From Halosolutus gelatinilyticus (GTDB lineage: Archaea > Halobacteriota > Halobacteria > Halobacteriales > Natrialbaceae): DNA of 64,000 bases. The position numbers and the translations under genes were made by a program. Position 1 is the first letter of the stretch. The number at the start of each line of letters is the position of its first letter. The notes under the pieces were generated by a model. The model made no database searches, was not told the DNA's origin, and saw only the letters and a list, made by a program, of their open reading frames with translations. This document shows, in pieces, positions 31,380 to 38,766 of the stretch. The stretch is taken from contig NZ_CP095491.1 in assembly GCF_023028105.1 (NCBI RefSeq), positions 1,860,001 to 1,924,000 of the forward strand, read 5' to 3'.

Positions 31380-32548
31380 TGCCTCCACCAACCAATAACG
31401 GTTGATCTGCTCAGGGAAACGTTGTGGAGCTTGTCGGTCACTGCTGCATATACTGACAAAACGCCGTTCTGAGCCTTGTTCCAGAGCTTGTTCACTTTGG
31501 TCGCCGGCTCGGATCCTGTAAACTGAATAGGGACCGTTCCTCGGCTGAATATCGAGGAGTAGAATCGGCGAACACTAGTCAGATATAATACTCCCCGCCA
31601 TTGGCCATCACTCCGTATAGCTACTGCTTTCCCTTTCCACAGAAGGACCGATAGCTTTCGTTTCACCGTTGAACTGCTTTGCGTGATAAGACGGCCTGCA
31701 CGTCCGCTATCGGTGGCATTGAGTGGGATCGTTCCAAAATTCTGGGTGATGAGGGAGAGACAAGAGCTGACCAGAACAAACGGATACGTAATGCTACTGA
31801 GTGCGATTGGAAGTAGTGAGATGCCGATCTTCTGAACGGAGTAGTGGTCAAATTTTGTTCCTTCTTGTGAGGAATACGAGGATAGCTGGCCAACGGACAC
31901 TGGACGGTCAGCAATCACGCCGTCAGCACCGGATTTCCGAAGGATTTGTGCCCCAACGTCAGTATTTATCGTCCACACGAACGTTTTCATCTTCTTCTTG
32001 TGTGCTCGCTCAATGAGACCCGTGGATAGACAGATAACCCAATGGGGTTGAATGTGAGTGCAACCCAATTCCTCCGCGGTTTTGAGATTTTTCTCTGGAT
32101 TTATTGCAAAGATGAGTGCGGTTGGGATGTCCGGATCAACCACCCTTACCTCTCGGAGAATCTCCTTATTTGCCGACGAGATCACGATATGGGCTTCTCT
32201 GTCCCGAATCGCTTTCACAACATCTTCCGCTAAGCCATATTCTTTAAGCTCAAGGTTGAGACCGACACTCGACGGAATGGTATCAAGAACGCTATCGAGC
32301 GTCGGAGGTCCCTGCCCGGATTTAAGGGCGTTGAGATTCGCCAGCTCTGTGGCCGAAAAGCTATCTACTCGGCCACTTGCGTCAGTAACAGCATCCAAAA
32401 TTCCATCATGGATAACCACAATTTCCCCACTTCGACATCGACGGAGGTCAAATTCGATCATATCAGCGTGCTCGGGTGCGTTTTGAAACGCAGTTTGTGT
32501 GTTCTCAGGAAAGATTTCCGCGAATCCACGGTCAGCGATTAATTTCAT
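31376..32548 (-). CDS. Glycerophosphodiester phosphodiesterase with C-terminal extension
   Basis: 390 aa. GDPD domain at residues 1-225: IADRGFAEIFPENTQTAF (HRG-type motif, but with Asp-Arg-Gly in place of His-Arg-Gly), EFDLRRCRSGEIVVIHDGIL (E.D, HD), NLELKEYG and FVWTINTD. The catalytic first His is therefore apparently replaced, while the HD pair is intact. A 160-residue C-terminal extension is not GDPD-like. Would release sn-glycerol-type phosphates from headgroups if active. First gene of a two-gene operon with the VTT protein. Confidence 0.82.
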   Translation of the reverse strand: MKLIADRGFAEIFPENTQTAFQNAPEHADMIEFDLRRCRSGEIVVIHDGILDAVTDASGRVDSFSATELANLNALKSGQGPPTLDSVLDTIPSSVGLNLELKEYGLAEDVVKAIRDREAHIVISSANKEILREVRVVDPDIPTALIFAINPEKNLKTAEELGCTHIQPHWVICLSTGLIERAHKKKMKTFVWTINTDVGAQILRKSGADGVIADRPVSVGQLSSYSSQEGTKFDHYSVQKIGISLLPIALSSITYPFVLVSSCLSLITQNFGTIPLNATDSGRAGRLITQSSSTVKRKLSVLLWKGKAVAIRSDGQWRGVLYLTSVRRFYSSIFSRGTVPIQFTGSEPATKVNKLWNKAQNGVLSVYAAVTDKLHNVSLSRSTVIGWWRQ

Positions 32549-32737
32549 TGTCGGTCCGAGAATATCCTGCTCCTCTCGACAACGAGTCGATACAATCGAA
32601 ATACAATGTGCAGTAGGCTACCCTGGGTTAATTTTGGGCCGGCAAAACGCCTGAGACGACTCATATTAAATTTTTTTGAAATATAATAATTCAGGGAATT
32701 TTCCATACTGCTTCGTCAGACCGTGCGTTTCGATCAT

Positions 32738-33979: not shown

Positions 33980-34807
33980 CTACGAAGCAACCCGGTCAGC
34001 ATCGCCTTCCACGCGTGCGACGATCCATTCGGCCGCGAAGACGGATCCGACCGCGAGCACGACGCCCGCCACGACATCGAGTAACCAGTGAATGCCGAGG
34101 TACATCGTCGAGAAGACGACACAGGTGACCACCAACGATGCAATCGGGAACCACCGTGGGGACTCCCGGCGCGACCGCCAAGCAAACAGCAAGACGACGA
34201 TCGACAGCGACGTGTGAAGCGACGGGAACACGTCCGTGTTCGCAGAGACCGCCGACGTGAGTTCCTGGGTCTCCGGATAGAAGGAGTACATCAAGCCATC
34301 GACGGTCGACAGGTGGTTGCGGGGTCCGTACGCGATAAACAACGTGTAACAGATCGAACCGAGCAGGTAATTGAAGAGGTACGCGATGAGCAACTCCTTG
34401 AGGTGGCGCTGGGACGACCACAGGAAATAGAGGATCGGTGCGGTCACCAGGAGGAACGGGAACCCGAACATGTACATCGCCGAGAAGAAACCTAGCGTAG
34501 CCTCGGGGACGATGTCCTGAAGGGAGGCGACGAGCTCGCCTTCGACGGCGTAGAGTTCGTCGGTAATGTCCCAGTCAAGCGCATACGAGATCTCCAGACT
34601 GTACTTATGCGTTGCTCGCTTCAGCAGGAAGAACAGCGCCGCAGCGCCGAGATAAGGCGCGACATCCAGAAGTCGACGATCGAGTTCACCGATGGTTCGT
34701 CGAAACTGTCGGGGCTGGACACAGAGAGCACACGTCATCGTCAGTCCGGTACAGACGGCGAGGGCGGTCACGATCACAACAGATGCTAATGCCGTATCTG
34801 TTTTCAT
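33980..34807 (-). CDS. PAP2-superfamily phosphatase/transferase, AUR1-like (PAP2-1)
   Basis: 275 aa, about six TM helices. Motifs YGPRN (partial C1), FPSLHTSLSIVVLLF (C2 with catalytic His) and GIHWLLDVVAG (C3 His-Asp) resemble the PAP2_3 group that includes inositol-phosphoceramide-synthase-like enzymes. Could transfer or remove phospho-headgroups on membrane lipids. The first 40 residues lack a PAP2 motif. Module D1 lies upstream. A 40-bp internal segment (34649-34688) is duplicated at the start of PAP2-2. Confidence 0.85.
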   Translation of the reverse strand: MKTDTALASVVIVTALAVCTGLTMTCALCVQPRQFRRTIGELDRRLLDVAPYLGAAALFFLLKRATHKYSLEISYALDWDITDELYAVEGELVASLQDIVPEATLGFFSAMYMFGFPFLLVTAPILYFLWSSQRHLKELLIAYLFNYLLGSICYTLFIAYGPRNHLSTVDGLMYSFYPETQELTSAVSANTDVFPSLHTSLSIVVLLFAWRSRRESPRWFPIASLVVTCVVFSTMYLGIHWLLDVVAGVVLAVGSVFAAEWIVARVEGDADRVAS

Positions 34808-34917
34808 TGTCTATCTGATAAAATAATAATCTTCTCGACAACGATTCGATGCAACCTATATGCCTCTCCCTGCACTGTGGCGAGATTCGCATAATGCTTC
34901 GTCAAAGCGCGTGTCTC

Positions 34918-35297
34918 GTTCATTCTCATCCGATTGCCCTCATCCATCGGGGATAAATAAACTCTAGAGACCTTCCAATCCAATTCTGGCGTGATATGGC
35001 CGTACAACGCCGAATTCTGGATAATTGGGTTGTGATTTTCAGGCCACTGAGTTCGAAATAGTTGCGTCTTCTATGGCCGATATGGCCATACACCATTCTC
35101 CATTATGGCTGTTACACTGGGGGAACGGTGCTTTATCTTCGGCTCTGTTGAAATCAATGGAGAGGTACGATTCAGTCGATAGTGTGAGTGAATGCAGACC
35201 CTCCCAAAATCGCAGTTACTTCGGTTTGTCGAGGAAGCATTTCACCTTGCTCAACGAGCGGTCTCACGATATTCTTTAAAGTATTCGAAACAACGCT
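34918..35297 (-). repeat. Promoter module copy D1 plus IS left end (380 bp repeat)
   Basis: Same 380 bases as 37123-37635 once the 125-bp MITE and one 8-bp target copy are removed; only one or two substitutions were noticed. Holds TATA TAAATAAA (34954-34961), CTGAGTTCG (35047-35055) and on the minus strand an ATG opening MRMNETRALTKHYANLATVQ, again a broken ABC-ATPase start. From 35141 it includes the left end of an IS5-type element and its first 35 codons. Confidence 0.85.
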
Positions 35298-36012
35298 ACA
35301 CGCTTCATCAGCACGCCGTTCTGCTCTGTCTCAAAGTTCGGAAGAACACGACCTATCGAACACTCCTCGACGAACTCATTGAAATGCCTCGTATTCGGAG
35401 TGCGATCAACCTCACCGAACTTCCTGCCCCGTTAACGCTGTGCAAAGCGTTTGATAGACTCGATATGGCTGTCTGGCGGGTACTTCTCAATCTCTCTGTT
35501 GCACTGCTCCCGACTAACGGTGTTGCAGGGATCAACGCTTCGGGGTTCGACCGAATCCATGCCTCAAAGTACTATACGAACGGGCGAAGCTGACGATTCA
35601 GCAGCTGAAAGTCACGCTCTTAGTCGATACGAGAGCAAACGCGATCCTCGATCTCCACGTCACAACGACCCGAAAACACGATACGCAGATCGCACCGTCA
35701 CTCATCAACCGCAACGTGTCTGAAATCGGAGTTTTGCTTGGAGACAAGGGGTACGACGATCAGCAGATTCGAGCGATGGCCCGCGAGAACGGGGTTCGTC
35801 CACTTATCAAACACCGTGAATTTTCCTCACTTCAGAAAGCGTGGAACGCTCGGTTGGATACTGAACTCTACGGCCAACGGAGCCAGAGCGAAACGGTGAA
35901 CTCTCGACTCAAACGAAGATACGGTGCGTTCGTCCGTTCACGACGCTGGTGGAAGCAGTTCCGTGAACTCGCCCTTGCGTGTATCGTCCATAATCTTGAC
36001 CGAGCAATCTAA
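35141..36012 (+). pseudogene. IS5-family transposase, single frameshift
   Basis: Left end GGCTCTGTTGAAATC at 35141. Frame opens at 35192 (MQTLPKSQLLRFVEEAFHLA), carries INASGFDRIHASKYYT and stops at 35593; a one-base loss near 35580 shifts the rest into another frame (AKLTIQQLKVTLLVDTRANA, LLGDKGYDDQQIR, LYGQRSQSETVNSRLKRRYG) ending at 36012. DDE residues are present across both frames. No right terminal repeat was found, so the element is also cut on the right. Confidence 0.85.
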
Positions 36013-36156
36013 CGATCAGTACAGATGAAAGAGGTATCGGAACCGAAAGTGATCCCACTGATAGCTGCCAAGAACGACGTGCTGTAACAGAGCGTGAGAT
36101 CTGCACGAGCGTTTTCCTCCGGATGAACTGACGGGCCCACGAAACGTCGAGTAAGT

Positions 36157-37134
36157 CTACCGACCTTCCGACTGCTCGACAAATCGGTTACCAATCAGCG
36201 GTGCACCAACGACACCGCCGACGGCAATAGTAGCCCCGAAAAACGTGATTGGCAGCGACGGTTTGAGGGAATTCAAGAGCGCGAAGAAGCCGCCAGCGAG
36301 TCCGAAGACGGCGAAACCGACAACAACCTCTCGGCGATTCAATGGGTGGGCTGGCGTCAAATCACCGACGGCACGCCAAGTGAGCCACGCACCAACAGCG
36401 CTCCCGACAGCAGCTACGCTATCGAAGGTAACTCCGTGAATCAATCCCAGCACTCCAATGCCCGCGGCGAACACGAGTACCCGGCCAGGGGTAGTGCCGT
36501 GATCACTGATCGTGTAGAGTCCTCCCAGAACGACTATCCCGATGACGGTTCCGACTACGACGTCAACGAGGTAGTGAACCCCCAAGACGACTCTCGAAAG
36601 CGAGACGATGAGGATTACGACGCCCGCGAGCGCGAGCCACACATGCGAACGTTTGTCTTTTCGGACAGCGAGAGCGAACCCACCCCACACCAGCGTACTC
36701 CCGAGGGCGTGGCCGCTCGGAAACCCATACCCCGTACCCGTCGAAATACTAGCGAACACCCCTTGCAGGGCGGACGGAATCCACTGAACGTCCGGTGGAG
36801 TCTCCGCCCCCGGCGGTCGGGGAACCATGAAGGACTGCTTGAGCACTCCGACGAGAGCAACGTAGGTCAGTAAGAGTCCGAGAACGAACAGACCACGTCG
36901 TCGGTCGATCCCCCACTTCGGGAACCTGTCGCCGGCGACGTAGTGTACGCCGCCCAGCAAAAAGAGAAACCAGACATCGCCAAGCTGGGTTAACAGCGCA
37001 AAGAAAACGAGAACCGGGTCCTGTGCCAACCCGTGAAGTGCCTCGCTGATTCCGATTCCGCGGTCATCACTGAGCATCTCTATGTGGGAGATAAGGCGCG
37101 ACATCCAGAAGTCGACGATCGAGTTCATTCTCAT
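36157..37134 (-). CDS. PAP2-family phosphatase (PAP2-2) with recombinant N-terminus
   Basis: 325 aa from ATG 37134 (MRMNSIVDFWMSRLISHIEM) or 37128. Real PAP2 homology begins around MLSDDRGIGISEALHG; motifs are KQSFMVPRPPG (C1), YGFPSGHALGSTLVW (C2) and SRVVLGVHYLVDVVVG (C3), all catalytic residues intact, followed by extra TM helices to about 310. The first ~17 codons come from module D2 plus a 40-base piece of PAP2-1. Probably dephosphorylates lipid phosphates on the outer membrane face. Confidence 0.88.
   Translation of the reverse strand: MRMNSIVDFWMSRLISHIEMLSDDRGIGISEALHGLAQDPVLVFFALLTQLGDVWFLFLLGGVHYVAGDRFPKWGIDRRRGLFVLGLLLTYVALVGVLKQSFMVPRPPGAETPPDVQWIPSALQGVFASISTGTGYGFPSGHALGSTLVWGGFALAVRKDKRSHVWLALAGVVILIVSLSRVVLGVHYLVDVVVGTVIGIVVLGGLYTISDHGTTPGRVLVFAAGIGVLGLIHGVTFDSVAAVGSAVGAWLTWRAVGDLTPAHPLNRREVVVGFAVFGLAGGFFALLNSLKPSLPITFFGATIAVGGVVGAPLIGNRFVEQSEGR
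37088..37127. repeat. 40-bp repeat of PAP2-1 interior at the PAP2-2 start
   Basis: Identical to 34649-34688 inside PAP2-1. In PAP2-1 it encodes GELDRRLLDVAPYLG; here it is read in another frame as NSIVDFWMSRLIS. It abuts module D2 and shares five bases (GTTCA) with the module end, the mark of a microhomology junction. Confidence 0.85.
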
Positions 37135-37635
37135 CCGATTGCCCTCATCCATCGGGGATAAATAAACTCTAGAGACCTTCCAATCCAATTCTGGCGTGAT
37201 ATGGCCGTACAACGCCGAATTCTGGATAATTGGGTTGTGATTTTCAGGCCACTGAGTTCGAAATAGTTGCGTCTTCTATGGCCGATATGGCCATACACCA
37301 TTCTCCATTATGGCTGTTACACTGGGGGAACGGTGCTTTATCTTCGGCTCTGTTGAAATCAATGGAGAGGTACGATTCAGTCGATAGTGTGAGTGAATGC
37401 AGACCCTCCCAAAATCGCAGTTACTTCGGTTTGTCGAGGAAGCATTTCACCTTGCTCAACGAGCAGTCTCACGATATTCTTTAAAGTATTCGGCTTTGTT
37501 GAAACCCTCTTCACGTCTGGCGGTTTTATCTGAGGCCGCTTTTCGAACGCATCGGCCGAGAGCCAATTTGAGGGCTGCTCTATTTAGTGTCAACGAAAAA
37601 TGGTTTCAACAGAGCCAAGTATTCGAAACAACGCT
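37123..37635 (-). repeat. Promoter module copy D2, interrupted by a MITE
   Basis: Second copy of the 380-bp repeat at 34918-35297. TATA at 37159-37166, CTGAGTTCG at 37252-37260, IS left end at 37346. Supplies the ATG of PAP2-2. The IS part ends at 37635, replaced by unrelated DNA. Confidence 0.85.
37492..37616. mobile_element. 125-bp MITE with 8-bp target duplication
   Basis: Terminal inverted repeats GGCTTTGTTGAAACC and GGTTTCAACAGAGCC (14 of 15 pair). Flanked by AAGTATTC at 37484-37491 and 37617-37624. The sister repeat has a single AAGTATTC at 35279-35286, the empty site. Its ends resemble the IS end GGCTCTGTTGAAATC at 35141, so an IS5-type transposase of that group probably moved it. It carries no ORF. 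Confidence 0.92.
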
Positions 37636-37678
37636 GCGAAACCGTATTTGCGTACGCGCCTTTGTGTTCTTCGCCCCC

Positions 37679-37970
37679 CGTAGCCCTGATAGACCGAGAA
37701 AAACCGCATTCCGGCGAGCGTCAACTCGTTGTAGAAGTCGTTGTAGTGCTCCGCGTACCGCTCTCTCCCGAGCATCGACGCGTCGTACCCCGTCGCGGCT
37801 TCGATATCAACGTCTTCGGCCGTCGGCGTCGTCCGGCTCCCGTAGACCGACGACGACGCGTAGACGATCGTCCGGCAGCCGTCCGCCAGCGCCTGTTCGA
37901 CGACGTTTACGAAGCCCTCGATATTGACTCGAGCGCCCTCCCGTGGATTTTCCTCGAGCATCTGCCGACT
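37679..37970 (-). pseudogene. NAD-dependent epimerase/dehydratase, internal fragment
   Basis: Minus-strand frame reads SSRQMLEENPREGARVNIEG, VVYASSSVYG-like (IVYASSSVYGS, the catalytic Ser strand) and a Y...-containing RERYAEHYNDFYNEL, then AGMRFFSVYQGYG. This is the middle of a sugar-nucleotide epimerase; the N-terminal GxxGxxG site and the C-terminal half are missing. It is joined head-on to the stress-protein gene at about 37970. Confidence 0.8.
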
Positions 37971-38766
37971 CGAGATCGCCGACGAGTGGGATGCGACCAT
38001 TTCCCTGCTCTACGTCGCGGATACGAACGAGTCCAGTCAGACTCGTCTCGGTACCGAGGTCGTCGACGTTCTGGAACAGGAGGGCGAAGAGATCGTTTCG
38101 AACGCTCGCGAACGAGTCGCGGAACGCGGCGTCTCCGTCACCACGGATATCGTCCAGGGGATTCCCCACGAAGCTATCGTCCAATACGCCGCGACGCACG
38201 ACGCCGACCTCGTGGTGATGGGAACCCACGGCCGGGACGGACTCGAGCGATACGTTCTCGGAAGTGTCGCGGAGCGCGTCGTCAACAGAGCGACGATACC
38301 GGTTCTGACGGTCCGCGCGGCCGACGATGTGACGACGAACTATCCGTATACCGCCGTCCTCGTCCCGACGGTCGGAAGCGATCACGCGATGGCCGCCCTG
38401 CAGCGAGGCGCGGACGTGGCGAATCGCAACAACGCCACGGTTCACCTCCTCTCCGTCCTCGAGGAGCCGATACTCGGATTAGGGAACGACCGATCCGATC
38501 GCGACGAACGGGTCCGAGAACTACTCGAGGAAGCCACGTCGACGGTACAGAACGCGGGTGTCGACGACGTCGTTACCGCCGTCAAGTCGGGATCGGTGCC
38601 GCGGGAAATCGCCTCCTACGCGGACTCGGAGGGAATCGATCTCATCGTGATGGGAACGCACGGTCGAACGGGAATCGATCAGCACCTCCTCGGGAGCATC
38701 ACCGAACGGGTACTCCGAACCGCGTCGGTCCCCGTCCTGACGACGAATCGAAAAAACCCCTCGTGA
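37924..38766 (+). CDS. Tandem universal stress protein, 5'-truncated
   Basis: 280 aa as an open frame, but USP homology begins only at EIADEWDATISLLYVADT (about 37975), lacking the usual first strand. Two USP domains follow with nucleotide loops MGTHGRDGLERYVLGSVAER and MGTHGRTGIDQHLLGSITER (G-2x-G-9x-G-S). Family members bind ATP/AMP and act in stress. The missing first ~20 residues and the joined epimerase fragment show the 5' end was lost by recombination; expression would need a new start. Confidence 0.8.
   Translation: MTRAPSRGFSSSICRLEIADEWDATISLLYVADTNESSQTRLGTEVVDVLEQEGEEIVSNARERVAERGVSVTTDIVQGIPHEAIVQYAATHDADLVVMGTHGRDGLERYVLGSVAERVVNRATIPVLTVRAADDVTTNYPYTAVLVPTVGSDHAMAALQRGADVANRNNATVHLLSVLEEPILGLGNDRSDRDERVRELLEEATSTVQNAGVDDVVTAVKSGSVPREIASYADSEGIDLIVMGTHGRTGIDQHLLGSITERVLRTASVPVLTTNRKNPS

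Follow-up and report, generated by a model that had tools for sequence, protein, structure and literature searches.

Promoter capture next to an IS, by duplication and recombination, is a described route by which a gene comes under new control, and a natural promoter swap in an IS-rich region of gene scraps is a known kind of event. The gene studied here, PAP2-2, lies in a window of 64,000 nucleotides from Halosolutus gelatinilyticus (NZ_CP095491.1, positions 1,860,001 to 1,924,000) and resembles such cases in that its own promoter appears to have been lost and the upstream region of a neighbour gained by local rearrangement. It differs in that the putative promoter is not an outward promoter of an IS but probably derives from what was once the 5' end of an ABC-ATPase gene, now decayed, and in that the module also brings an in-frame start codon, predicted to be leaderless. 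Microhomology-mediated end joining (MMEJ), which operates in haloarchaea (PMC7776575), offers a likeness for the joints, since these show overlaps of 5 nt (GTTCA) and 7 nt (AGTACAG) together with a deletion; here, however, the process is known from its products alone and the pathway is inferred. The closest described proteins are the PF01569 phosphatases encoded on plasmids of Natrinema sp. DC36, Haloterrigena turkmenica and Halalkalicoccus jeotgali, which belong to the same family and have the native start and intact motifs, whereas PAP2-2 is located on a 3.9-Mb contig (the largest of its genome, presumably the chromosome) and does not share their native promoter.

Pfam, orthologue alignments and the DC36 annotation place PAP2-2, read from its native start, at 36157..37077 on the reverse strand (306 aa, MLSDDRGIGISEALHG..., the protein beginning MLSDDRGIGI). 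The profile match to PF01569 (E=5e-20) scores 71.9 bits against a curated cut-off of 27.2 bits, and the translation contains KQSFMVPRP, PSGH and SRVVLGVHYLVD, that is, all three phosphatase motifs (KX6RP, PSGH and SRX5HX3D); by profile and motifs it is a PAP2 superfamily phosphatase with predicted enzyme activity. With dN/dS at 0.22 in the comparison with H. jeotgali (over the first 145 codons) and at 0.14 in that with Natrinema salsiterrestre, past selection on the enzyme is evident; these values are silent on the time elapsed since the swap. Both the native ATG (37075..37077, reverse strand; blastn, orthologue alignments and DC36 annotation) and the coding frame are intact, and the native fragment, comprising the 3' flank, the gene and 10 nt 5' of the ATG, spans 36018..37087 on the same strand (blastn). 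The longest ORF begins at 37212 and reads ...PMDEGNRMRMNSIVDFWMSRLISHIEMLSDDRGIGISEALHG..., and annotators should beware that this start differs from the ancestral one.

Directly upstream of the native fragment, 40 nt (37088..37127, reverse strand) are identical to 34649..34688 (reverse strand) inside PAP2-1, an intact neighbouring gene of the PAP2_3 family (33980..34807, reverse strand; 275 aa; Pfam) whose N-terminus resembles that of its relatives. The match is 100% over a maximal length of 40 nt, which is not chance, and the segment is read in different frames, GELDRRLLDVAPYLG in PAP2-1 versus MNSIVDFWMSRLIS in PAP2-2. It is followed by a second repeat, D1, made up of the PAP2-1 upstream module (up to 35140 in the donor) and an IS left end: the donor spans 34918..35297 and copy 2 spans 37123..37464 (both reverse strand), with 342 nt exact (34918-35259 = 37123-37464) and an extension to about 35297 that has one mismatch (35260) and skips a 125-nt insert of copy 2; the copies diverge at 35298. 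In copy 2 the 40-mer and D1 overlap by GTTCA (37123-37127), and the order, 34649-34688 and then 34918-35297, equals the donor 34649-35297 minus 234 bases. The preliminary description had noticed the 40-nt identity in another frame and the GTTCA shared at the seam; the former is exact, and the joint does have the look of microhomology. A whole-genome search returned two copies of the repeat pieces and no third, and when 60 relatives were searched for the D1 module, just short IS-end matches came up. Since both pieces keep the order and orientation of the donor, they are best read as a single duplicated block (34649-35297) with an internal deletion of 234 bases, and two independent insertions are disfavoured. 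The joint thus combines a short shared sequence with a loss of 234 bases relative to copy 1, as in MMEJ, but a 5-nt overlap points only weakly to any particular repair pathway, and end joining and replication template switching leave identical products.

Relatives with an unrearranged locus were found on plasmids of Natrinema sp. DC36 and H. jeotgali, for which the preliminary description had suggested a search, and at 88-91% identity they permit a direct comparison. By blastn, DC36 plasmid 2 matches window positions 36018-37084 at 88.1% DNA identity, DC36 plasmid 1 matches 36087-37090 at 88.4%, and the H. jeotgali plasmid matches 36144-37090 at 90.7%, all three matches ending at the initial bases of the 40-mer or just short of them. 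Upstream of the point at which the window diverges, the three remain alignable to each other for about 65-85 nt, and this different upstream region carries what appears to be the native promoter, in which a TATA-like TATTAACA, or a variant of it, precedes the ATG by about 38 nt; in orthologues that are more distant, TATAACA (GGCTATAACAGCAC) stands at the same distance. With the H. jeotgali sequence as query, the native upstream region had no match in the genome of the window, an empty result that is weak evidence. It is well supported by these comparisons that the window has lost the native upstream region of PAP2-2, including its promoter region, and equally well that the latter was replaced by the module of the neighbour. 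The closest relatives are thus plasmid-borne, and the H. jeotgali copy is split over two frames and that of DC36 plasmid 1 is unannotated, suggesting that the gene decays frequently.

The same comparison bears on the start codon, which PAP2-2 was initially thought to take from the recombined module. The sequence does not establish that claim, because the orthologous ATG (37077-37075) survives in the window, outside both foreign pieces; the annotated DC36 gene, like the native frame of the window 306 aa long, starts at the codon corresponding to 37077, so that PAP2-2 needed no foreign start codon.

The captured module nevertheless brings elements from which the gene may now be expressed. A TATA-like element, GTTTATTTAT, occupies 37158..37167 (reverse strand) and has a similar counterpart upstream of GDPD; the centre of the TATA-like TTTATTTAT lies 28 nt before ATG 37134, whereas no AT run was seen 28 nt before the native ATG 37077. 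The spacing of 28 nt fits a leaderless haloarchaeal transcript from a predicted promoter, and in Haloferax volcanii 72% of the protein-coding transcripts are leaderless (PMC4983044). The start codons ATG AGA ATG (37134 and 37128; 37126..37134, reverse strand), which we attribute to the 5' end of the decayed ABC-ATPase gene, are in the frame of PAP2-2, and a third in-frame ATG lies within the 40-mer (37102..37104, reverse strand); the ATGs at 37134, 37128, 37104 and 37077 share one frame that is stop-free between them. In copy 1, the counterpart of ATG 37134/37128 has the reading frame MRMNETRALTKHY, within the ORF 34804-35007, and the counterpart upstream of GDPD reads MSMIETHGLTKQYGKF; both the PAP2-1-upstream and the GDPD-upstream modules carry a GTTTATTT element 5' of the ATG. 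The GDPD-upstream frame aligns with residues 1 to 16 of many ABC ATPases from haloarchaea, two of which were confirmed as ABC_tran (Pfam), in matches that are each weak (best E=0.05), and a check by eye of the translations upstream of PAP2-1 relatives revealed no ABC gene. The IS itself was rejected as the source of the promoter, because the TATA-like box and the ATG fall outside 35141-36024.

The short ORFs before PAP2-1 (34804-35007) and before GDPD (32545-32706) both end in ...SDRQ*, their stops overlap the ATG of the next gene (ATGA), and a 60-nt similarity of 75% spans that end. The two have the look of paralogous leader ORFs, and are possibly ABC-ATPase remnants from which the middle has been deleted.

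Initiation at the module ATG would add 17-19 residues to PAP2-2 (MRMNSIVDFWMSRLISHIE), and the stretches MRMNSIVDFWMSR, LISHIEMLSDDR and NSIVDFWMSR would be specific to the extended protein. The extension NSIVDFWMSRLIS was absent from the orthologues: in none of the 93 genomes with a match did the alignment cross it; the alignments extend at most about 10 residues to the N-terminal side of the native Met, where the majority already end. This agrees with the earlier proposal that PAP2 homology begins only after the 40-mer, and no orthologue was found with the N-terminal extension, a finding that would have contradicted the recombined start put forward in the preliminary description. The idea of a new N-terminus assembled from two foreign pieces holds in so far as the upstream sequence is foreign and comes from a neighbour, but it needs a start at an upstream ATG, and one block is likelier than two pieces. 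By a rough estimate, an open in-frame extension of 19 codons would arise by chance in about one case in five, and the amphipathicity of the extension is nothing unusual, 25% of shuffles reaching it.

Since the native promoter has probably been lost and most transcripts of haloarchaea lack a leader, initiation at the module ATG is plausible, and we consider it somewhat likelier than a start at the native codon; a new N-terminus of PAP2-2 is accordingly likely, although the native ATG is intact. As the main alternative, the module might drive transcription only, with translation from the native ATG behind a 57-nt leader and an unchanged protein, as the intact native ATG, the annotation of the DC36 orthologue from the same codon and the selection on the coding region would allow; a haloarchaeal transcript with a 5' AUG, however, normally initiates at its 5' end (PMC4983044), and inspection of the sequence before the native ATG revealed no Shine-Dalgarno-like sequence, so that we regard this alternative as rather unlikely. 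PAP2-2 could also be silent, a reading frame freshly stranded amid IS debris with its native promoter gone and the module promoter dead. Scraps do surround it (a broken IS, a MITE and an epimerase fragment), and other copies are split or lack annotation, but its reading frame is unbroken, all three phosphatase motifs are preserved and the TATA-like box is well positioned, and we judge silence improbable. An assembly error that fused two repeats might be suspected from the location of the joint at a repeat; it is very improbable, as the copies differ uniquely (the 40-mer joint, the mismatch at 35260 and a MITE only in copy 2) and both lie inside one 3.9-Mb contig.

We therefore favour, as a whole account that seems to us reasonably probable, a block duplication with promoter replacement and a likely start at the module ATG. 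The block 34649-35297 of the PAP2-1 locus (part of PAP2-1, the upstream module and the IS left end) would have been duplicated to a position 5' of PAP2-2 and shortened by the 234-base deletion, the ends of which meet at GTTCA. The joint, which precedes the native ATG by 10-13 nt, would have removed the native promoter, while the module would have provided a new TATA-like box, at a distance suited to a leaderless transcript from the decayed ABC-ATPase ATG, which by chance fell in the frame of PAP2-2. The likeliest product would be PAP2-2 extended by 17-19 residues, the native ATG then offering an alternative start inside the longer frame. The present order might have come from a tandem duplication of 34649-37087 in which most of the second copy was later lost, or equally from a copied block. 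What the DNA shows directly is that a block was duplicated and suffered a deletion, that the native upstream sequence was lost, that the native ATG and coding frame are intact and that further ATGs lie in frame; the activity of the module promoter, the start codon in use and the order of events are inferred. That the swap has at once given an active membrane enzyme, its activity being predicted, a new chimeric N-terminus, we put forward tentatively, at slightly less than an even chance.

The locus is a clean case in which a gene appears to have exchanged its native promoter region for that of a neighbour a few bases from its start codon. Leaderless haloarchaeal genes fuse promoter and start codon, and to capture the one is to capture the other too; if the module ATG is used, promoter swaps in genomes with leaderless mRNAs would rewrite protein N-termini as well.

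On the other side of PAP2-2 lies copy 1 of the IS5-family element (35141..36024, forward strand), whose transposase frame is broken and which is 93.6% identical to an IS of Natronorubrum aibiense. Its right end abuts the 3' flank of PAP2-2 at AGTACAG, a 7-mer shared by the right end of the IS and the flank in DC36. In the IS5-family copies that were read, sequence sharing on the right side ends at AGTACAG or a similar sequence and no matching terminal inverted repeat was seen; the left end is conserved (GGCTCTGTTGAAATC). The IS fragment of copy 2 contains a MITE-like insert of 125 nt (37492..37616; GGCTTTGTTGAAACC...GGTTTCAACAGAGCC, with the repeated flank AAGTATTC), and the insert resembles the left terminus of the IS5-family element next to it. 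At the end of the copied IS fragment an NAD-dependent epimerase gene fragment (37593-38000; PF01370) is truncated, and a UspA-like reading frame of the opposite strand overlaps its other end.
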